Below are positions 9,168 to 53,351 of a DNA stretch of 64,000 nt, one piece after another; position 1 is the stretch's first letter; the number at the start of each line of letters is the position of its first letter. Source of the DNA: Caballeronia insecticola (lineage in GTDB: Bacteria; Pseudomonadota; Gammaproteobacteria; Burkholderiales; Burkholderiaceae); contig NC_021287.1 in NCBI RefSeq assembly GCF_000402035.1, positions 992,001 to 1,056,000 of the forward strand, read 5' to 3'. Below the pieces are notes generated by a model. It was not told the origin of the DNA and did not search any database. It was given only the letters and a program-made list of their open reading frames with translations. The translations under genes were made by a program, and so were the position numbers.

Positions 9168-10532
9168 TTACGGCTGCTGCGTTTGCTGACGTCGATGCCC
9201 GTGCCGCGCACCCGATGCCCCCGACGCCGGCGCGGCGGCCGAAGCACCCGAGGCACCGGAAGCACCGGAAGCACCCGAGGCCGCCTTCGCCTTCTCGGCC
9301 GGGATCGTGATCTTCGCGCCTTCCTTGAGCCGGTCGGAGCCGTCGATCACCACGCGCTCGCCCACCTGCAGGCCGGACTTGATGCTGGTGCGCTCGCCAT
9401 CGACGGGGCCGGTCTTGACGTTACGCACCGCGACCGTGTTGTCCGGCTTCACCACGTACACGAACGACCCCGACGAGCCGTTCAGCACCGCGGGTGTCGG
9501 CACGATGACCGCGTCTTTAATGACATCGACGAGCAGCTTCGTGTTGACGAACTGATTCGGGAAGAGGCCGAGGCCCTTGTTGTCGAACGTGGCACGCAGC
9601 TTGACGGTGCCGGTGGTGGTGTCGATCTGATTGTCGACGGTTTCGAGGTAGCCCGATTCGAGCGCCGTGGTGTTCGCGCGGTCGTAGGCCGTGACCGACA
9701 TCTTCGTGCCCGCGTGCAGCGGCTTCAGGATGGCGGCGAGATTGTCCTCGGAGGTCGTGAAGATCACGCTGATCGGCTGCAACTGCGTAATGACGACGAC
9801 CCCGTTGGCATCGCCCGTCGTCACGTAGTTGCCCGGATCGACCTGACGCAGGCCCACGCGCCCCGAAACCGGCGCCGTGATGCGCGCGTAGGTGAGATCG
9901 AGCTTGTAGGTATCGACGTTCGCCTGGTCGGATTTCACCGCTCCTTCGTACTGCTTGACGAGCGAGGCTTGCGTGTCGACCTGCTGCTTGGCGATGGAGT
10001 CCTGCGAGAGCAGCGTCTGATAGCGCTGCAGGTCGAGGCGCGCGGTCTGGAGCAGCGCCTGATCTTTCGCGAGCGTGCCCTCGGCGTTGCGCAGCGAGAT
10101 TTGATAGGGACGCGGGTCGATCTGCGCGAGCACGTCGCCCTTCTTGACCATCTGACCTTCCGTGAAGGCGACATCGACCAGTATGCCGTTCAACTGCGTC
10201 TTGACGGTGACATTGGCAAGCGGCGTGACCGTGCCGAGCGAATTGATGACCACCGGCATTTCGCCTTGCGTGACGGTTGCCACATGCACCGGCTGCGGCT
10301 GGTTCGCGGCGTTCGGACCGCCGCGCCGACCGCCCTGACGCGCTTCCTGCTGCGCGCCCGCGCCGCCGCCGTCGCCCCGGTTCCACGGATGCCACCACAC
10401 GATCGCCCCCGCGACGATCAATGCCGCGATGACGAGCGGCACGATTCTGCGGCGCCGGATCGCGGGTTCGGTGGCGGCGGGGGAAACGGGCGTCGGGCGC
10501 GGTTGCCCGGGAGAGTTCTTTTGGTCGTCCAT
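9168..10532 (-). CDS. mdtA: RND efflux periplasmic adaptor (membrane fusion protein), MdtA-like
   Basis: A 454-residue membrane-fusion protein linking the RND trimer to an outer-membrane channel. A basic N-terminus is followed by one membrane anchor (RRIVPLVIAALIVAGAIVWW, about residues 28-47). Then come the biotinyl-lipoyl-like segment (VKTQLNGILVDVAFTEG), a helical hairpin rich in Gln, and a beta-barrel domain (ITAPVSGRVGLRQVDPGNYV). The C-terminus ends in an unusual (AlaSerGly)n run and a basic HGHRRQQTQQ tail. It is the first gene of the operon; the promoter should lie in the 399-bp gap upstream, but I cannot point to one with confidence. Confidence 0.92.
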   Translation of the reverse strand: MDDQKNSPGQPRPTPVSPAATEPAIRRRRIVPLVIAALIVAGAIVWWHPWNRGDGGGAGAQQEARQGGRRGGPNAANQPQPVHVATVTQGEMPVVINSLGTVTPLANVTVKTQLNGILVDVAFTEGQMVKKGDVLAQIDPRPYQISLRNAEGTLAKDQALLQTARLDLQRYQTLLSQDSIAKQQVDTQASLVKQYEGAVKSDQANVDTYKLDLTYARITAPVSGRVGLRQVDPGNYVTTGDANGVVVITQLQPISVIFTTSEDNLAAILKPLHAGTKMSVTAYDRANTTALESGYLETVDNQIDTTTGTVKLRATFDNKGLGLFPNQFVNTKLLVDVIKDAVIVPTPAVLNGSSGSFVYVVKPDNTVAVRNVKTGPVDGERTSIKSGLQVGERVVIDGSDRLKEGAKITIPAEKAKAASGASGASGASGASAAAPASGASGARHGHRRQQTQQP

Positions 10533-13540: not shown

Positions 13541-16225
13541 ATGAAGTCACGCAAGCTCGCGGATGTCCGCGAGTCGGCGACTGTCGCGATATTCTGGATG
13601 GCAGCTTTCGCACATCTTCGCGCAACGCTGCGTCAGTCTTTGCGCGCGTCGTCGCCGATCCTGGCCGCATTGGCCACATGGGCCGCACTCGCCGCGTCGC
13701 TCCTGCTCGCGGCGCCGGCCGCCCACGCGGGGCCCGCTCTCACGCTGCCTTCGTTCGAGGAACTGATCAAGCCGGCCGCGCCCGCATCGGCGCCGGAGGC
13801 CGCTTCGAGCGCGTCCGATGCCGACATGGTCCGCTCGCTCGACACCGTCATTTCCACGCTCGACAGCGACAAGCAACGCGCCGCGCTCGTCGCGCAACTG
13901 AAGCGTCTGCGCGAAGCCAAGCGCGCCGCCGAAGCCGGTGGGCCCGCGTCGGGCGCGGCAACGGTGCCCGCAACCACCGACGCCGCGGCGAGCGGCGGCG
14001 CATCGTCGGGCACGCAGGCCGGCGCGCCGACATCATCGAGTTCGACGGCTTCCTCGGTCGTAGCGACGATGGCGCAGAACGCCGGGCTGCTCGGCGCGAT
14101 CGCGTCGGCGCTCACCAACATCGAAGCGGACGTGAAGCGCGGCAAGACGCCGATCGCGTATTGGGGCGGGCGTTTCAACGCGGCCGGCAACGAGCTCTTC
14201 ACGATCGTCACGAGCCAGAGCCGCGAATCGTTCGGCCGCACGCTCTTCAACTACTTCGCGACGCTCGCGGGCTGGGGCGCGTGCGCATTCGTGCTGGTCT
14301 ATATCCAGCGGCGCGTGCAGGCGCGCTACGGCATCGACAGCGGTTTGCATTCGAATCCGACCACGCGCGAGTTGCTGTTCTTCACGATGCGCCGCGTCGC
14401 GCCGTATGTGGTCGCGTTCGTCGCGGCGCTGAGCTTCACGCACTACATGCCGGCGTCGCTCGGCCGCACGCTCGCGATGGTCACCGCCTACGCGATCGTC
14501 GCGGGCGCGGTGTTCTCGGCGATCTGCCTCATCATGTTCTCGCTGTTCGGCTCGGCGCATCGCCGGGTCGCGGTGAACGTGCTGATCATCCACGCGCGAC
14601 GGCTGCTGTTTCTGATCGGCACGCTCGGCGCGCTCGGCGACGCCGCCGCCAACTACGACGTCGCGCAGCAGCTCGGCACCAATCTCTCCGCGCTCATCTC
14701 GACCTGCGCCAACATGGGCGCGGCCGGTCTCACCGCGTACTTCGCGCTCGCGTTCCAGCGGCCGGTCGCGCATCTGATCCGCAGCCGCAGTTACGAGCAG
14801 CGCAACACGCGCAAGGCCGCGACCGAGACCTTCGAAGTGGTCGCGTCGCTGTGGCAGGTGCCGTTGCTGTTGCTCGCGTCGGCGTCGGTGGTGGCGACGC
14901 TCATGGGCATCGGCACGTCCGAGAACGTCCTGCAGATGGCGATCGCGACCGCCGGCCTGCTCGTCGTCGCGTTCTTTCTCTCGGCGATCGTCGTGCGCAT
15001 CACGCGGCCCAAGTCGAAACGGCCGCGCCGGCAATCGGCGTATGTGCGCAGGCTGATCAAGTTCGTCGGCACGATGATCGTGGTCGGCGTCTGGCTCGTG
15101 TTCCTCGAATTGTCGTCGCGTTTCTGGGGCTTTTCGCTTGCGCACATGGCCGAGGAGAGCGTCGCCGCGCGCGGCATCGCGCACGCGGTCGCGATGATCG
15201 TGCTGACGTTCTTCGTCGTGTGGCTCGTGTGGATTCTTATCGATACGGGCATTCAGGAAGCGCTGCGGCCCGACACGGCGCGCCGTGGCGCGCGCGGCCC
15301 GAGCATGCGCGCGCGCACCATGTTGCCGCTCGTGCGCAACGTCGTGTTCGTGTTACTGCTGATGGTCGCCGCAATCGTGACGGCCGCGAATCTCGGCCTG
15401 AACGTGACGCCGCTGCTCGCGGGCGCGGGCGTGATCGGGCTTGCGGTCGGTTTCGGCGCGCAGTCGCTGGTCGCGGATCTGATCACGGGTTTGTTCATCA
15501 TCATCGAGGACACGATTTCCGTCGGCGATTCGATCGAGGTGGAAGGCGGGCACGCGGGCATCGTGGAGAGTTTGACGATCCGCACCGTGCGCCTGCGCGA
15601 CGGCCAAGGCGCGATTCACGCCATTCCGTTCTCGCAGATCAAGACGGTGAAAAATCTGTCGCGCGATTTCGCGTATGCGGTGTTCGAGGTGCGCCTGCCG
15701 TTTACTGCCGACGTCGATGAAGTCACGGAGATGATCCGCGAAGTCGGCGCCGACATGATGTCCGACTTCCGCTACCGGCTTGAAATGCTGGGCCCGGTGG
15801 AAGTGTGGGGCCTCGACCGTTTCGATCCGAACTGGATGGTCGTCAAAGGCCAGATCAAGACGCGGCCGCTGCAGCAATGGAGCGTCGCGCGGGCGTTCAA
15901 TCTGCGCATCAAGCGCAAGATGGACGAGGCGGGCATGGAGATTCCGGTGCCGCAGATGCACGTTCAGATGACGCGCGATGCAATGCTCGGCGATGCCGCA
16001 GCGTTCGGGCGCGAGCGCGCGCGGCGCATCTGGACGGCCGAGGCGCCGCCGCCTGCGGATGACGAAGCGGAACTGGCGGTCGGCCGGGATGTTCCGCGCG
16101 AGGCGAAAGGCGCGTCGGCCGCGCGCGATGTCTCACACGAACCGCAGCCGGCGCCGCCGCCCACGGATCAGTCGGTGCCGATTCCGCCGCAGATCCCGAC
16201 CGCATCCGAGCCCGGCAAGGGCTGA
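13541..16225 (+). CDS. Large MscS-family mechanosensitive channel
   Basis: An 894-residue inner-membrane channel of the MscS superfamily, of the long (YbiO/MscM-like) type rather than the ~290-residue MscS. A hydrophobic leader (LLLAAPAAHA, near residue 60) is followed by an Ala/Ser-rich periplasmic stretch. Several membrane helices then lead to the conserved pore helix and beta domain, where GVIGLAVGFGAQSLVADLI lies near residue 630 and EDTISVGDSIEVEGGHAG after it. The C-terminal cytoplasmic domain ends in a Pro-rich tail. The family releases solutes on hypo-osmotic shock. It stands alone apart from the upstream lipoprotein. Confidence 0.92.
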   Translation: MKSRKLADVRESATVAIFWMAAFAHLRATLRQSLRASSPILAALATWAALAASLLLAAPAAHAGPALTLPSFEELIKPAAPASAPEAASSASDADMVRSLDTVISTLDSDKQRAALVAQLKRLREAKRAAEAGGPASGAATVPATTDAAASGGASSGTQAGAPTSSSSTASSVVATMAQNAGLLGAIASALTNIEADVKRGKTPIAYWGGRFNAAGNELFTIVTSQSRESFGRTLFNYFATLAGWGACAFVLVYIQRRVQARYGIDSGLHSNPTTRELLFFTMRRVAPYVVAFVAALSFTHYMPASLGRTLAMVTAYAIVAGAVFSAICLIMFSLFGSAHRRVAVNVLIIHARRLLFLIGTLGALGDAAANYDVAQQLGTNLSALISTCANMGAAGLTAYFALAFQRPVAHLIRSRSYEQRNTRKAATETFEVVASLWQVPLLLLASASVVATLMGIGTSENVLQMAIATAGLLVVAFFLSAIVVRITRPKSKRPRRQSAYVRRLIKFVGTMIVVGVWLVFLELSSRFWGFSLAHMAEESVAARGIAHAVAMIVLTFFVVWLVWILIDTGIQEALRPDTARRGARGPSMRARTMLPLVRNVVFVLLLMVAAIVTAANLGLNVTPLLAGAGVIGLAVGFGAQSLVADLITGLFIIIEDTISVGDSIEVEGGHAGIVESLTIRTVRLRDGQGAIHAIPFSQIKTVKNLSRDFAYAVFEVRLPFTADVDEVTEMIREVGADMMSDFRYRLEMLGPVEVWGLDRFDPNWMVVKGQIKTRPLQQWSVARAFNLRIKRKMDEAGMEIPVPQMHVQMTRDAMLGDAAAFGRERARRIWTAEAPPPADDEAELAVGRDVPREAKGASAARDVSHEPQPAPPPTDQSVPIPPQIPTASEPGKG

Positions 16226-44484: not shown

Positions 44485-44931
44485 GTGGGCAATCACATCA
44501 CTCCTGAGGACCGGGCGAAACAGACGGCGCCGCACGGCGCGCCGCTGTCGGCGTTGCTGATCGAGGATTCGCCGCTGATCCGCCGCAGCCTTATCGAAGC
44601 GATCGACGCGCTCGGTCCGTGGCGCGTGAGCGCCTTCGCCGAGGCTCCCGACGACGCCATCGCGCTGCTGTCGTCGCAGGCGTTCGACGCGGTCATCGTC
44701 GATCTGCAGCTCAAGCGCGGCTCCGGTATGGAAGTGCTTGCGTGGCTCCGGGAGAACGGCGCTCAAACCATGCGCCGCGCGTTCGTCGCGGTGCTGACCA
44801 ATCACGCGCTGCCGACGTATCGCGAGCGTTGCCTGCAATACGGCGTGCGCCATTTCTTCGACAAATCCCTCGAATTCGATCGCGTGCTCGATGCGCTGCA
44901 CGATTACGCGCGCGAGCATCGTCATCCCTGA
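44485..44931 (+). CDS. Receiver-only response regulator (CheY-like)
   Basis: A 148-residue protein with a single receiver domain. It has the acidic pocket (IEDSP, about residues 26-30), phosphoacceptor Asp73 (VIVDLQLKRGSGMEVL), the Thr in VLTNHA and the Lys in FFDKSLEF. No output domain follows. The start is GTG at 44485. It follows the NarL regulator by 58 bp on the same strand. It may act as a phosphate sink or protein-interaction switch; no partner is visible. Confidence 0.85.
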   Translation: MGNHITPEDRAKQTAPHGAPLSALLIEDSPLIRRSLIEAIDALGPWRVSAFAEAPDDAIALLSSQAFDAVIVDLQLKRGSGMEVLAWLRENGAQTMRRAFVAVLTNHALPTYRERCLQYGVRHFFDKSLEFDRVLDALHDYAREHRHP

Positions 44932-44967
44932 GGGTGCTTCTCCGGTTCGGCGGAATCGCGCGAACGG

Positions 44968-45768
44968 CTAGAACGGCTGCGGTCCGCCGCCCTGATCGAC
45001 GCTCATGCAGTGCGTGACGAAGCCAGTCTCCGCGCCCCACAGATGCAGCCCGAACGCGGGCGGCTCCATGACGAACGCCTCCGGGCCATCGGGCTTGAGT
45101 TGCAGCGCGACCTGATGAGCTGTCGACGGCGCGCACCAGACGAGCGTGCCGCCGAAACGGACGCTGATCGCGCGATGCACGTGCCCGCAGACGATCCGCT
45201 CGACGTTCGGATGACGCCGCACGAGCGCATCGAGCGCGCGGCTATCGTCGGGGCTTAGGCGGATATCGTCCATGAAGCCGATGCCGCACGCGAACGGCGG
45301 ATGATGCATGCCGATCAGAACCGGACGGTCGCGGCAGGCGTCGAGCTGGGCTTCGAGCCATGCGAGACGCGTGGCGCACAGACGCCCGCCGCCGGAGCCT
45401 GGGTCGAGCGTGTCGAGCGCGATCACGCGGACGTCGCCCGAGTCGAATGCGTATTGCACGAAGCCGTCGTGGCCCGCGAGTTCGGGACGATCGGCGAACA
45501 CGGCGCGCAGATTGCCGCGGTCGTCGTGATTGCCGACGAGCACGTGCCACGGCAACGTAAGCCCGTCGAGCAGCGTGCGCAGATGCCGGTATTCGTCGAG
45601 GCCGCCGGCATCGACGAGATCGCCCGTGATGAGCACGCCGTCCGGGCGCGGGTCGAGCGCGTTGAGCGCCGCGATCGCGCGGGCGAGAAAGGCGGCGGTA
45701 TCGACGCGGCCGTAGGCGAGCGTACCCGGCGGCGTGACGTGCAGATCGCTGATCTGGGCAAGCAGCAT
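44968..45768 (-). CDS. Metallophosphoesterase, CpdA-like class III phosphodiesterase
   Basis: A 266-residue calcineurin-like phosphoesterase. The metal motifs are in order: SDLH (7-10), GDLVDAGG (near 49), GNHDD (near 78), GMHHPPF (near 155) and GHVHRA (near 197). The spacing is that of class III cyclic-nucleotide phosphodiesterases such as CpdA, which hydrolyse cAMP. It could equally act on another phosphodiester. It is convergent with the receiver gene and 43 bp downstream of a lipoprotein gene on the same strand. Confidence 0.87.
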   Translation of the reverse strand: MLLAQISDLHVTPPGTLAYGRVDTAAFLARAIAALNALDPRPDGVLITGDLVDAGGLDEYRHLRTLLDGLTLPWHVLVGNHDDRGNLRAVFADRPELAGHDGFVQYAFDSGDVRVIALDTLDPGSGGGRLCATRLAWLEAQLDACRDRPVLIGMHHPPFACGIGFMDDIRLSPDDSRALDALVRRHPNVERIVCGHVHRAISVRFGGTLVWCAPSTAHQVALQLKPDGPEAFVMEPPAFGLHLWGAETGFVTHCMSVDQGGGPQPF

Positions 45769-45811
45769 GCGTGTGCTCCTCCTGCGTGCGCCCGGACGTG
45801 TGCGGGGCTGC

Positions 45812-46171
45812 TTAGTCGTCGGCGTCGGCGTCCGCGGACGGTGGCTTGGGCGCGAGATAGGCGGGCAGAAGCCACTGAAAGCCGGTCATCGCCTGGTCGC
45901 TGAACGTGCATTCGGCTGCGGCAACGCCGGCAGTCGGCTTGGTCGCCGGCGGCTTCGGCGGGTAGTCGATCGCCGCGTGCACGATCACCCGCGAACCATG
46001 ATAACCGGCGTTCGAGCCGGTGATCTTGAGCGGCGCGATCGCGGCGCTGGGATAGTCGGTGCGCATCTTGTCCTTGCAGGCTTCGACGTTCTTGTAATAG
46101 GACGTGCAGCCGGCGAGCGCGAGGGGAACGGAAATCAGTAACGGCAGAAAAAGGCGAGGGCGATGATTCAT
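45812..46171 (-). CDS. Predicted lipoprotein, hypothetical
   Basis: A 119-residue lipoprotein: basic start, hydrophobic core (FLPLLISVPLALAGC, Cys22) and a mature part with three further Cys-free stretches plus one Cys pair candidate (EACKDK, AECTFSD). It ends in an acidic PPSADADADD tail. No family is recognised. It precedes the metallophosphoesterase on the same strand. Confidence 0.72.
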   Translation of the reverse strand: MNHRPRLFLPLLISVPLALAGCTSYYKNVEACKDKMRTDYPSAAIAPLKITGSNAGYHGSRVIVHAAIDYPPKPPATKPTAGVAAAECTFSDQAMTGFQWLLPAYLAPKPPSADADADD

Positions 46172-46443
46172 CGAAGAATTCGGTCGATGTCCGATGCGGC
46201 GAAGCGCACCGGCGCGTGATGGATATCGGGGCCAAGGTTTATAACATGCGCGCCGCGCGCGGTCTTTTCAACGTGTCGCTGTCATGCATCACTGTAGTGC
46301 ATCGAAGCGGCGCGCGCCGCGTGGCGGCTTGTTTTGCCGCGTGAAGCGGTAGCACAATCGCCACTGGCGTGCTTCGAGTGCGGTGCTGTTTGCGATTGCG
46401 TTTGCGTTTGCCGTTTGCGTTTCGACCAAGGGAGACGATAGCC

Positions 46444-46728
46444 ATGCAGAAGGACATCGAGGTAGGCGACTACTTGCTCGCCATGCAGACCGTGCCCAGA
46501 ACGATCGACGCCGAAGGCGAGGAAGACGCGCCGCCCGCCGAACGATACGCGATCCGCGTGCGCGTGTCGCGGCTCGACCGCAAGCCTGTGCATGGCTCGG
46601 CGCTCGCGGACGACTCCGGCGAGATGACGGGCGATCATGGCCCGTTCGAGACCGTGGCGGAAGCCATCGCGCATGGCGAGGCGTGGGGACGGCATTACGT
46701 CGCGCGCGTGTTGGGGCATGCGGTGTAG
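46444..46728 (+). CDS. Hypothetical soluble protein (94 aa)
   Basis: A 94-residue protein starting MQKDIEVGDYLLAMQTVPRT after GGGAGACG. It is acidic, without signal or membrane segments, and contains RYAIRVRVSRLDRKPVHGSA and a C-terminal helix (VAEAIAHGEAWGRHYVARVL). It has the look of a small conserved cytosolic protein. The function is unknown. Confidence 0.65.
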   Translation: MQKDIEVGDYLLAMQTVPRTIDAEGEEDAPPAERYAIRVRVSRLDRKPVHGSALADDSGEMTGDHGPFETVAEAIAHGEAWGRHYVARVLGHAV

Positions 46729-46852
46729 CGGCGGGGTATGCGAAATGAGGGGCGCGCTCCCTGCATGAAGCGGGTGCAGGACGGCGGCGGGCATCGCTAG
46801 ACTTTGCCTCGTCGACCGGATACCGGCCGGCGCAAGTCAGTCGGAGAACGTC

Positions 46853-47065
46853 ATGATGCCCGTTGCCCTTTACGTCACGTCGAACTACATCGCATCGGTC
46901 CGCAAAGGCAAGGCGCGCGATTCCTTTGGCGGCGCGGTGCGCTTCATCGGCGTGGATGCGCTGCCGTTCGATATCGAACACCTGTGCCTGCTCGACCGCG
47001 ACACCGCGATCGAGGCACTGTTCGACGCGGTGAGGGATGCGGAGCGGTTGTTGAACGCGGTGTGA
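46853..47065 (+). CDS. Small hypothetical protein (70 aa)
   Basis: A 70-residue protein (MMPVALYVTSNYIASVRKGK start, preceded by CGGAGAAC). The middle part is VRFIGVDALPFDIEHLC and it ends with an amphipathic helix (AIEALFDAVRDAERLL). There are no signal or membrane segments. Its composition is protein-like, but it has no recognisable family. Confidence 0.55.
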   Translation: MMPVALYVTSNYIASVRKGKARDSFGGAVRFIGVDALPFDIEHLCLLDRDTAIEALFDAVRDAERLLNAV

Positions 47066-47137
47066 GGGCGCGTGAGGATGCTGGCAAGGTGTTCGCTATT
47101 CACAGAACATCGCACGGAACCTCGCACGGAACAGCGC

Positions 47138-48274
47138 TTACTTTTTCATCAAGGTATGTCGCGGAAGACTGATTGTGAATACGCATCCGACGCCCGGAAT
47201 ATCGCGTACGCTCAGAAACCCGTCATTCAGTTCGACGCTTCGACGTGCTATCGATAAACCGAGCCCAAGCCCGGATTTATCCGCTCCGAATTGAGCGAAC
47301 GGCAGGAACATCTGCTCTGCCTTGCCCGGCGGGAGACCACCGCCGTGATCCTTCACTTCGATGAGAATCTTGTCTGCGACCGCATACGCGTTCAGTGTCA
47401 CGTCGGTATTTGGCTGCGTGAACTTGAATGCGTTTTGTATGAGATTGCCAAGCGCCGAGTACAGGAGATCGCGGTTGCCGCTGACAGCGAGGTGCGGATC
47501 GACCGGGGTGACGACAAAGCCGCAGCCGCGTAATTGCGCGGCGAGATTTGCAGCTTGCTTGGTTTCACCGATGAACTCCGACAGCGAGAACAGTGTCCAT
47601 TTCGCGCTGTCTGGAGCCGGCCTGCGGGCCTCTTCGATCGAACGTTCGATTAGCTTCCCCAGGCCTTTCAGGCTCCGGTCCAGTACGGCGCCCGTCGCGC
47701 CGAACAACGGCAAATTTCCGGCTTTCGCGGCCTCGAATGCAAGGGTTGCCGTGTGCAGGAAGTTGCGCAGTTCATGGGCGAAAGCGCCCATGCGTTCGCC
47801 TTCTTCCAGTGCTTGCTGAGTCGCCATCTTGGAGTCCCGCTGATAACTGAATTCCGTCACGGCGTCGGCGATCGCGTTGTCCAGGCAGCGGTTCAGCGTA
47901 CGGAATTCGTCGATTGAAAACGGCGCATCACGTTCATGCGCCAGGTCGGTAATGGCCTGGCAGAGATCGCCGTAGTCATGCACGACCTGGTCGACGGTAT
48001 ATCCCAGGCGTAGTAGCTCGTGCCCGTGCTGGGCTGCCGCTTCCCCGATGTCCGAACGGCCGGCATGGCCTCCCGGCGAGCCCGACACGTAGACGCTATC
48101 CGCCGGGCGATCTGATTGCTCGATTCGCAGCGTTTCAATCAACTGGTGGAGAAACAGCGGAATTCCGTTTTCGAGTTGCAGAACGGACGCATCGCGCGCC
48201 GGTCGCTGCGCCACTTTAGCCCTGCATCGCGTTATGAGCTCATCGCGGTTATTCGCTAGAAATGTGTAGAGCAC
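47138..48274 (-). CDS. Soluble sensor histidine kinase with RsbRD-like N-terminal domain
   Basis: A 378-residue kinase without membrane helices. The N-terminal all-helical part (about 1-160; TFLANNRDELITRCRAKVAQ, LLRLGYTVDQVVHDYGDL) resembles RsbRD-type sensor domains. The DHp motif FAHELRNFLHTATLAFEAAK supplies the likely phosphoacceptor His, and HATPase_c ends with DHGGGLPPGKAEQMFLPF, then GLGLGLSIARRSV. The GTG at 48274 has AGGAGG four bases upstream and is preferred; an ATG at 48295 is the alternative. No response regulator is adjacent. Confidence 0.82.
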   Translation of the reverse strand: MLYTFLANNRDELITRCRAKVAQRPARDASVLQLENGIPLFLHQLIETLRIEQSDRPADSVYVSGSPGGHAGRSDIGEAAAQHGHELLRLGYTVDQVVHDYGDLCQAITDLAHERDAPFSIDEFRTLNRCLDNAIADAVTEFSYQRDSKMATQQALEEGERMGAFAHELRNFLHTATLAFEAAKAGNLPLFGATGAVLDRSLKGLGKLIERSIEEARRPAPDSAKWTLFSLSEFIGETKQAANLAAQLRGCGFVVTPVDPHLAVSGNRDLLYSALGNLIQNAFKFTQPNTDVTLNAYAVADKILIEVKDHGGGLPPGKAEQMFLPFAQFGADKSGLGLGLSIARRSVELNDGFLSVRDIPGVGCVFTISLPRHTLMKK

Positions 48275-48682
48275 GGCGCCTCCTGTAGGGTGCATGCCGT
48301 TGTCTCGGCCGGGCGGATAATTTTCCGTGGGCCCTGCAGTTCGACAGAGCCTGCCCGCAGAGCGACCCTCGTTCATTCTGGCATGCGCTGCGCTCTCTGA
48401 TCCGTTTGCGACGGAAAAAGCAGGCCATACCGATCCGCGCCGCGGATTTGGCCGATATTTGAGTCAAATTGGGGGCGTGTAGCCCTGGTTTTGGGGGCTC
48501 GCCCAAGTAGCTGCGCTCGGCGCATAACTTGTGCCTCGCCTTCGAGACAGGAACGCGGTGTAACCGAGGGACGATCGCGGTAGGCGTCGCGACAGAGCAC
48601 CGTGGATACCTCAGGTACGACAGGACTCTGGGCTCTCGCTCGCGCAATCGCGGTGAAATCTGGCCGACGCTTTTTCGCGTGG
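48275..48682. other. Intergenic region between the histidine kinase and the island
   Basis: About 400 bp of mixed composition. Only short overlapping frames occur, none with recognisable features. It presumably contains the kinase promoter. Confidence 0.4.
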
Positions 48683-48739
48683 ATGGTGCCGGGGACCGGA
48701 CTCGAACCGGCAGGCCGTTAGGCGGCGGATTTTAAGTCC
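48683..48739. repeat. Left att copy: exact 57-bp repeat of the tRNA-Leu 3' part
   Basis: These 57 bp are identical to 50466-50522, which cover the 3' part of tRNA-Leu(UAA) from just outside CCA through the anticodon stem. Past the repeat the sequence diverges, so no full tRNA exists here. A truncated tRNA copy on the far side of foreign DNA is the classic attR/attL signature of tRNA-targeted integration. Confidence 0.9.
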
Positions 48740-49149
48740 TAAACCCCTCGATATGCGAGCAGCTACGAAGCAAGGTTCCTACGAGAATATAATTTCGCGG
48801 GCGGCCAGATACTGTATATAAAAACGTGAACAATAATAGATAGTTAGAAAAATGCACATATGTCGCTTTGCGCCATAATCCAAAGGAGCAAGGCAAAGAG
48901 TGTCAGGGAAACCGGCATGTTAGGTCCTAAGAACGCAGGCTTATCATGGGAAATTGCAAGTTTGATGGCGGCTCGGTTGCTCATTTCCAGCGCATTACCT
49001 ACGACCAGCATGCCTACAAGGCAACCATCACGCTTCATGGCTCTTGCGAATCGAAGCGAATCGGCATTCATTCCTTGAGCGAAACGAGATCGGGAGGGTT
49101 ATCAGACCAACAAATAGTAGAGCTGATACAACGCTAATCCGTGAGTAAT
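48740..49149. other. Island left part, no intact gene
   Basis: About 410 bp inside the island. It is AT-rich at 48780-48840. Two overlapping minus-strand frames (48844-49071 and 49028-49261) each contain one hydrophobic segment and may be remnants of a frameshifted small membrane protein. No family is recognised. Confidence 0.4.
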
Positions 49150-49395
49150 TTAATTGGTTCTCCAAGCACGTTTCCTGCCGACTGCAGCAACAGCGTCTGC
49201 TGATTTCTCGGTCACGAGATGGCTGGATCGCTTCGTCGAACGATCGATAGATGCCAACCACTTCGCCGACTTGAAGAAATCAACGCCAGCGTCGAACCTC
49301 TCCGAAGCAGCCGAGTGACGCAAGTCATGGAAGTGCGTCGCGGGACATCGCGGCGACGCGCGCGGCCTCGACGTGGTTCCATTAAGGGAATCACG
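49150..49395 (-). pseudogene. Tyrosine recombinase (integrase) C-terminal remnant
   Basis: The minus-strand frame reads THFHDLRHSAASERFDAGVD, then STKRSSHLVTEKSADAVAAV and ends at TAA (49150-49152). HxLRH with HSAAS is the conserved box II of phage integrases, and TKRxSHLxTxKxADAV matches the region around the catalytic tyrosine. Here the usual Tyr is Ser and the LGH box is lost, and an in-frame stop lies just upstream (near 49398). It is therefore a non-functional fragment. It fits the att repeats on either side. Confidence 0.75.
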
Positions 49396-49682
49396 TTACT
49401 GCTTGCCCACTGGCGCTGCTGCTGTTGAGTTGCGCAACGGGTAGAGTCGTCGACGAGATGCCGTCGGTAACGAGCCGAGGTGAAGCGCAAGACGCGCCTC
49501 GCCGACACGGCATGCGTATAGACGAAGGCGACCTATGTGAGCTCGGCAGACGTGTTCAGCATGAGCCCGCGAAAGCGATACCTATGCACAACCCGGCGGA
49601 AGCTGCGCAGTGCGGATGGAAGCCGGTAATCAAATGAAAATCCCGCTGCGTTGGTGGTTTTGAGAGCGGTCTGCGCGCGCCG

Positions 49683-50267
49683 TCAGCGATCGCGATGAGT
49701 TAGTTGGAGATCGGGGTTCGGTTCGCGATCCACTGAGATCCACTCTCCGTTGTCGAAGTACACCCAGCGGCCACCATGCGACGAGAAGAAGCGATTATCT
49801 AGCGTTGCTTCCTTCACTATAATCTTTTGCTCTCCACCGACGACAACCGAATTGGACGGGACGTCTTTATAGACGACCGCATTCGCGCCGATTCGAACAT
49901 TGTCACCGACGACCACATTTCCGACGATCTTTGCGCCGGCGCCGATATAGACGTTGTCGCCGATGGTCGGCGCGCCCGCGCCGGCCGAATCAGGCAGCGT
50001 GATTGAGCCGATTGTTACCTGCTGGAAGATCACGCAGTTGCGTCCGACTTTGGCGTCGCCGGACACAAAAACGCTCTTCATGCCATGCGGGAAACATGGC
50101 TCGCTTGCAAAGGCGGAATTCCACGCTACAGAGCTATTGTTCTCATACTGATAGATCTGATATACGAGTTTTGCCAGTTTTGCGACAATGCCGCCGTTGC
50201 TGCGATAGCAAATGGTCTTCAACTTCCAGATCGATCCAAAAGGCGCTGTGAGTAGTCTGCCGATCAT
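49683..50267 (-). CDS. Hexapeptide-repeat acyltransferase (serine-acetyltransferase-like)
   Basis: A 194-residue left-handed beta-helix enzyme. Hexapeptide repeats run from GDAKVGRNCVIFQQVTIGS through PTIGDNVYIGAGAKIVGNVV to GDNVRIGANAVVYKDVPSNS. An N-terminal helical part precedes them. The usual catalytic-His position of CysE-type enzymes (YHGVTLGG) reads FQQVTIGS, as in some polysaccharide O-acetyltransferases, so a cell-surface sugar acceptor is more likely than serine. It is the only intact gene in the tRNA-Leu island. Confidence 0.82.
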   Translation of the reverse strand: MIGRLLTAPFGSIWKLKTICYRSNGGIVAKLAKLVYQIYQYENNSSVAWNSAFASEPCFPHGMKSVFVSGDAKVGRNCVIFQQVTIGSITLPDSAGAGAPTIGDNVYIGAGAKIVGNVVVGDNVRIGANAVVYKDVPSNSVVVGGEQKIIVKEATLDNRFFSSHGGRWVYFDNGEWISVDREPNPDLQLTHRDR

Positions 50268-50465
50268 CTTCTAGTGTCCTTCGGAGCTTCGGGTCGTATT
50301 TAATTTAGGAAAGAATGACGTCCGTTTAGCGACGACTAACATCGCATCGACCTGCAGAAGAAGCTCTGCCCAGTTGCGCGATCCGTTGTGCCCGATTCGG
50401 CAAGAAAATGCACGTCTCGATTCTCAGCTCACTGTCGCTTGATCGTTGGAAGCCACGCCCAATCT

Positions 50466-50522
50466 ATGGTGCCGGGGACCGGACTCGAACCGGCAGGCCG
50501 TTAGGCGGCGGATTTTAAGTCC
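50466..50522. repeat. Right att copy inside intact tRNA-Leu
   Basis: The second copy of the 57-bp repeat, covering the tRNA 3' half. The integration left the tRNA complete, as is usual for tRNA-targeting recombinases. Confidence 0.9.
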
Positions 50523-50551
50523 GCTATGTTTACCAATTTCATCACCCCGGC
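50467..50551 (-). tRNA. tRNA-Leu (anticodon UAA)
   Basis: The minus-strand sequence starts GCCGGGGTGATGAAATTGGT, carries anticodon-stem/loop GCGGACTTAAAATCCGC with anticodon TAA, a long variable arm (CGCCTAACGGC), T-arm CCGGTTCGAGTCCGG and ends CCCCGGCA plus encoded CCA. Acceptor bases GCCGGGG and CCCCGGC pair fully. The 85-nt length and long variable arm are those of leucine tRNAs. It is the integration target of the neighbouring island. Confidence 0.95.
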
Positions 50552-50671
50552 AGGGCGGACGCGATTCTACCATTGCGCCACCACGCACCAAAACGCCGTC
50601 CGTTCGACAAGCCCACGACCCTCCCGCATAATCGGCGGCACCTTGTCAGCCGTCCACGCCCGGGCACCGCG

Positions 50672-51124
50672 ATGCGCATCGGTCTCATCTCCGACACTCA
50701 CAATCTCGTGCGTCCCGAAGCGCTCGACGCGTTGCACGGCTGCGCGCATATCGTTCACGCGGGCGATATCTGCAAGCGCGACGTCCTCGATCAGCTCGCG
50801 CCCCTCGCGCCGCTCACCGTCGTGCGCGGCAACAACGATGTCGATGAAGGCGTCGCATCGTTGCCGGAGCACGCGCGCATCGAACTCAACGGCGCGACGC
50901 TTTACGTCGTGCACGATATCGCCGATGTGCCGCGCGGGCTCGACGGCATCGATATCGTCGTGACCGGCCATTCGCACAAGCCGCTCATCGAGCGCCGCGG
51001 CGGCGTGTTGTTCGTGAATCCGGGCAGCGCGGGGCCGCGCCGCTTCAAACTGCCGATCACGCTCGCCTTGCTCGATATCGACGCAGGCCGCATCGACGCG
51101 CGCATCGTCACGCTCACGCCATAA
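50672..51124 (+). CDS. YfcE/MJ0936-family metallophosphodiesterase
   Basis: A 150-residue small calcineurin-fold phosphodiesterase. The motifs are SDTHN (7-11), HAGDIC (near 33), RGNND (near 51) and TGHSHKP (near 100), with NPGSAGPRRF near 119 typical of YfcE. The family hydrolyses small phosphodiesters in the cytosol. The ATG at 50672 begins the standard MRIGLISDTH; an in-frame start further upstream would overlap no good ribosome site. It lies just outside the tRNA. Confidence 0.9.
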   Translation: MRIGLISDTHNLVRPEALDALHGCAHIVHAGDICKRDVLDQLAPLAPLTVVRGNNDVDEGVASLPEHARIELNGATLYVVHDIADVPRGLDGIDIVVTGHSHKPLIERRGGVLFVNPGSAGPRRFKLPITLALLDIDAGRIDARIVTLTP

Positions 51125-51150
51125 AAAAGCCGGCGCTCACGCACCGGCCT
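51123..51150. terminator. Terminator between YfcE-like and ProP-like genes
   Basis: GCCGG (51129-51133) and CCGGC (51144-51148) with a 10-nt loop, flanked by an A-run on the left and CTTT on the right. On the minus strand it is followed by six T residues and suits the transporter gene; on the plus strand it is weaker. Confidence 0.7.
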
Positions 51151-51173
51151 TTCGCCTTCAAACCACCGAACGC

Positions 51174-52649
51174 TTACGCGCGCACGGTGCCTTCCGGGAA
51201 CGTATCGTCCATTTCGGCGGCTTCGCGATGGCCGCGCAGAATCGCGTGCGCTTCCGACTTCGACGCCACGGCCGGCGGCGAGCCCTTCAGCGGCTTCTTG
51301 GCCGTCTCGTGCAGCGCGAGCACCGACACGATGCCGATGAGCGACGCGCCCATCAGATAGTACGCGGGCATCATCAGATTGCCGGTACGGTCGACGAGCC
51401 ATGCCGTCACGAGCGGCGTCGTGCCGCCGAACAGCGACACCGACACGTTGAAGCCGATCGCGAGCGCTCCGTAGCGGATCTTGGTCGGGAACAGCGCGGG
51501 CAGCGACGACGGCATCACGCCCGTGAACGTCGACAGCAGCGCGCCGAGGATCATCATGCCCGCGAAAATCGACGGAATCGTGCCCATGCGGATCAGCGAG
51601 AGCGCCGGAATCGACAGCACCAGCAGGCCGACGCAGCCCGCGAGCATCACCGGCTTGCGGCCGATCGTGTCCGACAGACGGCCTGCGAACAGCGTGAGCG
51701 GCATCATCAGCACCATCACGACGAGCACGATGAACAGGCCGTGCGTCTCGTTGAACTTGAGCGTCGCCGACAGATAACTCGGCAGATACGACAGCGCCAT
51801 GTAGTCGGTCACGTTGAAGATCAGCACGAGACCGACGCATTGCAACAGCGGCTTCCATTGCTGGATGAGCGTCTCGCGGAACTGCTCCTTGGTCGTCTCG
51901 TGCGACACCGCTTCGGCCTTCTCGGCTTCGCGCTGGAACGCCGGCGTTTCTTCGAGCTTCATCCGGATATAGAGACCGATCAAACCGAGCGGGCCCGCGA
52001 TCATGAACGGAATGCGCCAGCCCCAGGACAGCAGCGCGTTTTCCGACATCACCGCCGTCAGCACCGCGACCACGCCCGCGCCGAGCACGTAGCCGACGAG
52101 CGTGCCGAGTTCCAGAAAGCTCGACATGAAGCCGCGCTTCTTGTCCGGCGAAAATTCGGCGATGAAGGTCGCCGCGCCGCCGTATTCGCCGCCGGTCGAA
52201 AAGCCTTGCACCAGGCGCGCGACGAGCAGCAGGACCGGCGCCATCACGCCAATGCTGTCGTAGCTCGGGATCAGGCCGATACAGAAGGTGCCGACGGCCA
52301 TCATGATCATCGTCATCGCGAGCACGCGCTTGCGGCCGATGCGGTCGCCGAGCGGGCCGAACACCATGCCGCCGATCGGGCGCACGAGGAACGCGGCCGC
52401 GAACGTGCCGAAGGTCGCCAGCAACTGCGCGGCCGGGCTGCTCGACGGGAAGAACACCTTGCCGAGCGTGACGGCGATGTAGCTGTAGACGCCGAAGTCG
52501 AACCATTCCATCGCGTTACCGATGGCCATGGCGCCGACAGCGCGCTTGAGCAGGGATTGATCGACGATGGTGATGTCGTCGAGCGTGAGATCGGACTTCT
52601 GACTGGATGTATCGCGTTTGCGCCAAAGGCCCTCGTGAAGGGTGGACAT
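51174..52649 (-). CDS. proP: MFS transporter, ProP-like (MHS family)
   Basis: A 491-residue 12-helix symporter. Hallmarks of the metabolite-H+ symporter group are AIGNAMEWFDFGVYSYIAVT, LVRPIGGMVFGPLGDRIGRK (loop 2-3) and LVQGFSTGGEYGGAATFIAE. ProP imports proline, betaine and related osmolytes; related members carry dicarboxylates, so substrate is not certain. The ATG at 52649 is preferred over one 120 bp upstream. It stands alone with a long upstream gap. Confidence 0.87.
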   Translation of the reverse strand: MSTLHEGLWRKRDTSSQKSDLTLDDITIVDQSLLKRAVGAMAIGNAMEWFDFGVYSYIAVTLGKVFFPSSSPAAQLLATFGTFAAAFLVRPIGGMVFGPLGDRIGRKRVLAMTMIMMAVGTFCIGLIPSYDSIGVMAPVLLLVARLVQGFSTGGEYGGAATFIAEFSPDKKRGFMSSFLELGTLVGYVLGAGVVAVLTAVMSENALLSWGWRIPFMIAGPLGLIGLYIRMKLEETPAFQREAEKAEAVSHETTKEQFRETLIQQWKPLLQCVGLVLIFNVTDYMALSYLPSYLSATLKFNETHGLFIVLVVMVLMMPLTLFAGRLSDTIGRKPVMLAGCVGLLVLSIPALSLIRMGTIPSIFAGMMILGALLSTFTGVMPSSLPALFPTKIRYGALAIGFNVSVSLFGGTTPLVTAWLVDRTGNLMMPAYYLMGASLIGIVSVLALHETAKKPLKGSPPAVASKSEAHAILRGHREAAEMDDTFPEGTVRA

Positions 52650-53351
52650 AGTTCGAAAAGCTCCGTATTCGATCCCGAAAACTCCACTCGATATGAGCTT
52701 CGGGCGCGCCGTCGAAAGACCGCGCGTATTGCCGGGACAGTGCAGTTTCGCGACGGCGCCGCGATGCATCGGTTAGCGGGTTGCGAATGAAACGCAAAAA
52801 GCTCCGCGCAGCATCCGGAATGAAGCGGATGCTGAAGACTCGATAGCAAATACGGTGCCGGTGCTTCGCGGTGGGTCGCGAAAATGCACTCGGATGAAAC
52901 ACACGAATTTGACGTGCGGACGGCGAACTCAGTGAGTTGCCGCGGGTGGGCCGCGACGTCGGCGAAAAAACAACCTGAGACGAAAAAGGCCGGCGTGAGT
53001 CTGGTAGAACCAGCTAGGAAACCGACGCGCCTCTTTGTATGAAAACTGTCACTACCACGCCGCGGCCGAATGATGCTGTGCCGGACTCAAGCGTGTGAAT
53101 GATGGTGAATTGCTGTTGATAACGAGAAGATGATAACACGATGCCAGACGATCTGCAAACCGGCCGGTTCGGACGGGCTTGGACGTCAAGCTCGATCCCT
53201 TGCTGGGTATAGGATTGCGCTGAATGAATTCTTATTCGTCTGATGGTCTAAATCGGCCATTTTCGAAGGCTTCGCCGACCTTGAGGCAACAAAAAACCGG
53301 CCGCATGGGCCGGTTCTTGCAGGACGTTTTTGCAACGCGTCAGGCGCAGGT
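52650..53351. other. Long intergenic region upstream of the ProP-like gene
   Basis: About 700 bp. It should hold the transporter promoter and ends with the yggX terminator. No open frame with coding character or RNA gene was seen. Confidence 0.45.
53290..53314 (-). terminator. Intrinsic terminator of argA-yggX
   Basis: ACCGGCC (53296-53302) and GGCCGGT (53308-53314) form a 7-bp stem with a 5-nt loop. On the minus strand a T-run follows, 38 bp past the yggX stop. Confidence 0.88.

Follow-up and report, generated by a model that had tools for sequence, protein, structure and literature searches.

A probable phage remnant enclosing an acetyltransferase gene at a tRNA-Leu(UAA) insertion hotspot of Caballeronia insecticola

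The window analysed here is a 64,000-nucleotide stretch of the Caballeronia insecticola genome (NC_021287.1, positions 992,001 to 1,056,000). ARAGORN detected a single tRNA gene in it, a tRNA-Leu(taa) on the minus strand, and the 3' half of this gene recurs in the same orientation as a truncated copy, 1783 bp away start to start (Table 1). All but one base of the repeat copy at the tRNA lies inside the gene. A first-pass annotation of the sequence had reported these two identical 57-bp copies, one in an intact tRNA and the other truncated and 1.78 kb off, and the comparison confirmed 100% identity. Since the 18 other direct-repeat families in 46000-53000 measure only 18-35 nt, with identities no higher than 90%, an exact 57-bp repeat is far beyond chance. 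Among the best five candidates in the same genome there was one further tRNA match, 81% identical over 80 bp and in a tRNA-Leu-like place. The DNA between the copies had been described as AT-rich, which holds in that the lowest GC is found at 48750-49249 but not for the interval as a whole, where 500-bp windows span 47% to 60% GC.

Table 1. Features at the tRNA-Leu(UAA) locus, in window coordinates.
Feature	Coordinates	Strand	Evidence
Kinase-type gene with an HATPase domain (412 aa as listed), outside the repeats	47138..48376	-	Pfam HATPase_c, E 1e-19
Truncated distal copy (attachment core) of the 3' half of tRNA-Leu(UAA)	48683..48739	+	57/57 identical to 50466-50522
Integrase-side phage end, 16-bp motif at 48845-48860	48740..48860		Match to G041 prophage
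Insert of ~0.3 kb relative to G041	48861..49167		Alignment to G041
Integrase C-terminal scrap (tyrosine recombinase)	49168..49392	-	82% DNA identity at 49204-49380 to the 3' part of the G041 integrase gene
Broken Rz1-like spanin (lysis gene) fragment	49393..49646	+	DNA match to the G052 Rz1-like gene
Hexapeptide acetyltransferase, 194 aa, open reading frame	49683..50267	-	Pfam Hexapep, E 3e-14
tRNA-side phage end, 16-bp motif at 50401-50416	50268..50465		Motif and distance
Intact tRNA-Leu(UAA), the target of integration, with the second core copy (50466-50522) as its 3' half	50467..50551	-	ARAGORN and repeat search

The integrase remnant that the first reading had placed between the repeats is a C-terminal scrap, and it matches the integrase of a prophage in genome G041 in DNA as well as in protein. 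At the protein level the identity is 52% over residues 264-327 (64 residues, E 6e-12), and one frame is open across it; this C-terminal piece is the one part of a G041-type integrase that the window holds. Where the G041 protein reads GVLGH...KRYSHL the window reads KWLAS...KRSSHL, so that a histidine and a tyrosine, which we take to be catalytic residues, are lost. The fragment of an Rz1-like spanin gene begins 12 bp after the integrase match. Its positions 49393-49624 are 73% identical, with four single-base gaps, to the Rz1-like gene of a prophage in genome G052 (PHROG 1275, E 4e-23), and a further 16 of 16 positions match at 49631-49646. Through the gaps the middle of the fragment is out of frame relative to G052, and the start region is missing; one frame is open for 80 codons and stops at the expected end. 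No DNA match to the Rz1 gene of G041 was found among the best six matches. Phage genes are thus present between the repeats in the form of an integrase scrap and an Rz1-like fragment, the latter absent from the first-pass annotation. A 63-aa ORF at 48946-49137 (plus strand), in the stretch from the integrase-side motif to the integrase scrap, is absent from G041 and gave no homologue and no Pfam or PHROG match.

The single acyltransferase gene noted earlier between the repeats was recovered as an open frame of the hexapeptide family. Among solved structures, serine acetyltransferases come closest to it (E 2e-14). The best NCBIfam model was EpsC, at 95.3 bits against a cut-off of 150, and cysE scored 80.6 against 210.65 bits; both scores are under the curated cut-offs for serine O-acetyltransferases of the EpsC/CysE kind. 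The enzyme probably acetylates a surface or exported polysaccharide. In 57 other same-genus genomes its relatives reach at most 52% identity among the matches listed, and the two best hits of a large protein search are 75% and 78% identical, the 78% protein coming from Paraburkholderia sp. Cy-641. Eight relatives lie on viral contigs, one at 78% (L192) and the other seven at 26-37%. On L192 the gene is flanked by an integrase-type recombinase and, in the other direction, by a patatin-like gene, holins and an endolysin, and it is through this one viral contig that the gene family is found as phage cargo. Because this closest viral homologue sits between a recombinase and lysis genes, the window's acetyltransferase is best read as probable phage cargo. 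The L192 prophage is unrelated to the phage of the remnant, and the tRNA-side end of the G041 prophage has no hexapeptide acetyltransferase. Between the window gene and its L192 relative, dN/dS is ~0.10 over 189 codons with a dS of 1.8; as dS is near saturation, this value reflects the history of the family rather than selection after decay. That the acetyltransferase frame is open while its neighbours have decayed is consistent with the decay being recent or with the gene being retained.

The occupancy of the site was then compared across relatives by searching 58 same-genus genomes for the left flank (window 44900-47071) and for the tRNA. The flank-to-tRNA gap was measurable, with both on one contig and a complete flank match (ending at position 2162 or later of 2172), in 33 of the 58, the window's own genome included; three others had flank and tRNA on separate contigs, and 22 had an incomplete flank match or none. 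The first-pass annotation had proposed looking for an unoccupied site in relatives, and such sites were found: 13 of the 33 measurable genomes are nearly empty, with 15-111 bp between flank and tRNA. The gap is 206-4116 bp in 17 (3395 bp in the window) and 21-47 kb in three. The tRNA-Leu(UAA) site is a hotspot for insertions and stands nearly empty in many relatives. The closest relative by flanks, G023, is 88% identical over the left flank and 93% from the tRNA rightwards; it carries an insert of 21.3 kb that matches window 47072-50466 only at the tRNA half. It had also been suggested that finding the same 1.8 kb in all relatives would point to an old duplication. Among 298 other genomes of the family (best two candidates per genome) no long match was obtained, the longest to the 1726 bp between the repeats being ~236 bp. 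The 1.7-kb block has no relative in phage records, and plasmid records gave nothing beyond two 92-bp matches, both at the acetyltransferase. In G047, the tRNA half recurs as a 50-bp copy 7.9 kb from the tRNA (L024, 4845 and 12753), and the shorter repeat suggests a different crossover point or a different element. A second tRNA-Leu-type half is exactly duplicated in G041, 6.9 kb apart (L025, 4127/11046; G041:C3:262126/269045), a pair that possibly marks another islet.

The segment 47072-48682, with the kinase-type gene, is missing at the near-empty sites too, so the insertion relative to these genomes amounts to 3.4 kb and not 1.8 kb, a length absent from the first-pass annotation. Relatives of the kinase-type protein occur elsewhere in the genomes G041, G054 and G013 (86-89% protein identity) and G034 (94%, residues 135-412), and the DNA match is confined to the gene. 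A third, outer core was sought in 47066-48682: the best 24-mer there has eight mismatches, the most frequent outcome among 30 segments drawn at random from the window, five of which gave a closer match. Tandem accretion as the source of the gene was rejected, as there is no trace of an outer core. The kinase-type gene is a separate arrival at the same hotspot. Genome G029 has 11 matches to it at E < 1e-50, and some relatives stand in inverted pairs (G029 and G031), as if the gene belonged to a spreading family.

A prophage of the kind from which the remnant may descend occupies the same tRNA in G041. There the distal core (C3:604843) and the tRNA (C3:651073) are 46,230 bp apart with the prophage between them, and the distal core adjoins a 329-aa tyrosine recombinase (Pfam Phage_integrase, E 1e-16) that is 100% identical to a protein of Caballeronia sp. 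INDeC2. Annotation of 10 hand-picked proteins yielded a terminase, a portal protein, a head protease, a tape measure protein, a baseplate protein, an endolysin, an Rz1-like spanin and a holin, together with an O-acetyltransferase / O-antigen acetylase and a tail-fibre-like protein. The Rz1-like spanin (PHROG 1275, E 3e-13) is the lysis gene nearest to the tRNA. Window 48684-48858 is 80% identical to the integrase-side end of this prophage with the core included, and 48769-48858, with the core excluded, is still 78% identical (E 4e-11). The two cores of G041 are exact copies of one another, and two positions set them apart from the window's pair; identity within and difference between genomes would be expected if each phage carried the tRNA half of its own host, or if the copies had been homogenised. 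Both G041 ends also have the sequence CTGT-N8-ACAG near the attachment motif (L021 ~9970-9990, L023 ~15956-15985), which we take to be LexA-box-like. Window 48810-48826, on the integrase side, has its first half only.

Relatives of the G041 integrase are encoded on 26 viral contigs. A tRNA-Leu-like half lies beside the integrase in seven of them (L154, L156-L159, L165, L166), and in L154 it is part of an intact tRNA-Leu(taa). Ten contigs stop no more than 40 bp beyond the integrase match and are uninformative on this point. Of the 16 with room beyond the integrase, nine have no tRNA-Leu half (L162, L167, L168-L170, L172-L175), L162 having instead a tRNA-Met ~100 bp on and L167 a tRNA cluster 0.6 kb on, so the integrase family is not tied to one tRNA. 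No tRNA was found alongside a related integrase in G011 (62%), and neither tRNA nor core was found near that of a Bordetella phage (43%).

The sequences flanking the core share a pattern. A 16-bp motif, CAGAAAAAnnCACACC in variant forms, recurs in G041 and all seven tRNA-Leu contigs (8/8) at a distance of 49-52 bp from the core on the tRNA-3' side, with 0-2 mismatches to the G041 16-mer. On the anticodon side it lies 108 bp from the core in each of the seven cases that show that side, with 0-3 mismatches except for L165, which has five. L156 and L158 are alike in the compared stretch and hence not independent. The motif is a putative integrase arm site. In the window, where the first reading had missed it, the motif occurs in both ends, 50 bp from the core (four mismatches of 16) on the tRNA side and 105 bp from the core (three mismatches) on the integrase side; on both strands of the window it is found with at most four mismatches at four places only, and two of these are the element ends. 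The window thus shares the spacing of the G041-type family, and with the family motif at the family distances a single phage group is the most likely source of both ends of the 1.7 kb. A search for the motif pattern with its spacer, allowing no mismatch, returned one of 299 genomes, G041; the window escaped it because its motifs are mutated. The attachment module (core and both motifs at fixed distances) has opposite orientations to the integrase in two groups of contigs, one comprising L159, L165, L166 and L154, the other G041 (L021, L023) and L156-L158. Beyond the module, L159 has an endolysin on the far side, as G041 does.

The reading we favour, with a probability of about 0.82, is that a phage of the G041 type integrated at the tRNA and later underwent a large internal deletion, leaving its two ends, two gene scraps and the acetyltransferase as cargo. 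A temperate tailed phage would have used its tyrosine integrase to insert into the 3' half of tRNA-Leu(UAA), whereby the tRNA would be rebuilt at one end and a copy of its half left at the other. An internal deletion, ~45 kb on the scale of G041, would then have brought the C-terminal end of the integrase up against Rz1, the last lysis gene, and taken the replication, head and tail genes. The acetyltransferase would originally have stood just after the lysis genes as phage cargo, and is the sole gene still open. We infer the order and number of these events and the size of the deletion. The near-empty sites, together with the G041 prophage at the same two sites, bear out the first-pass view of site-specific integration followed by decay, which is also backed by the family integrases beside a tRNA-Leu(UAA)-like half in seven of 26 viral contigs. 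Given an integrase scrap lacking the presumed catalytic residues and mutations in both motifs, the remnant is most likely stranded, its excision lost. Mutated motifs need not mean lost function, since L165 also has five mismatches in one of its motifs.

A local duplication of the tRNA half without integration would account for the repeat taken by itself, but it is contradicted by the phage ends, the integrase and lysis scraps, the near-empty sites and the G041 prophage, and we rejected it as extremely improbable. The first-pass annotation had also raised a very small element excisable in trans. Such an element would be an acetyltransferase between two phage ends, moved by superinfecting tRNA-Leu phages. 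The identical cores and the presence of both motifs agree with this idea, under which, if true, one surface-modifying gene would travel in the manner of a cassette. Yet the motifs are off the G041 motif at three and four of 16 positions, the genome has no close integrase (its sole other match to that of G041 being 39% over 57 residues), and there is no second copy in the 298 other family genomes (best two candidates per genome), none in phage records and just the two 92-bp matches in plasmid records. We regard the proposal as weak and very unlikely to hold.

Two variants concern the composition of the remnant and weigh more, although each is unlikely in our estimation. A single internal deletion from integrase to Rz1 is the simplest reading, and its main rival is a mosaic in which the integrase side came from a G041-like phage and the Rz1 fragment and cargo from another, or in which events were repeated, with no single large deletion. 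That the best DNA match of Rz1 is in G052, which has no integrase of the G041 family at E 1e-30, and that the 0.3-kb piece 48861-49167 is foreign to G041, speak for such a mosaic. Both ends nevertheless carry the same family's motif at the family distances, and the order of integrase side, Rz1, cargo and tRNA side is that of one phage from end to end. A different best match for Rz1 is moreover expected because phages share lysis genes as modules; the donor may itself have been a mosaic of G041-like and G052-like parts. The other variant accepts a phage remnant but has the acetyltransferase reach the hotspot later by another route. Many of the listed relatives are in diverse bacteria and non-viral contigs, only one of the eight viral loci is closer than 40%, the tRNA-side end of G041 is without a gene of this family, and the neighbouring kinase-type gene suggests that single genes do arrive here. 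The gene sits, however, inside the element, between the Rz1-like scrap and the tRNA-side motif, and its 78% relative occupies a prophage position flanked by recombinase and lysis genes. The G041 and G052 prophages likewise have an unrelated minus-strand gene beside the lysis genes, in G041 an O-acetyltransferase.

On the favoured reading, of a deleted G041-type phage, a single genus holds near-empty sites, a parent-type prophage and a remnant, which makes the stripping of a tRNA-integrated phage readable. The motif-and-distance pattern of this group of tRNA-Leu(UAA) integrases could in turn reveal other remnants from sequence alone. None of the titles found in the literature on Burkholderia/Caballeronia tRNA integration, on deletion remnants or on Burkholderia acetyltransferase conversion describes this locus.

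The G041 prophage is the nearest counterpart: it shares with the window the tRNA and core, the integrase-side end, the motif distances and an Rz1-like gene placed last before the tRNA. Unlike the window, it spans ~46 kb with head, tail and lysis genes, and its acetylase-type gene is of another family and placed before the lysis genes. Burkholderia islands integrate at tRNA 3' ends with direct repeats, according to PMC2612704. GI5 of B. pseudomallei, in the same source, resembles the window in using a tRNA-Leu 3' half with a 56-bp direct repeat, in another genus. PMC6379469 discusses the loss of excision and the deletions undergone by defective prophages. The 'grounded' (defective, cryptic) prophages described there are like the window in deletions, in the keeping of possibly useful genes and probably in lost excision, and unlike it in that just ~1.7 kb is left here between the cores. 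Serotype-converting phages, which modify the O-antigen by O-acetylation (PMC3636060), likewise place an acetyltransferase on a temperate phage, whereas the window's enzyme is of the hexapeptide family and lies in a remnant. A tRNA-integrated phage stripped by deletion is an ordinary kind of event, here traced in some detail.
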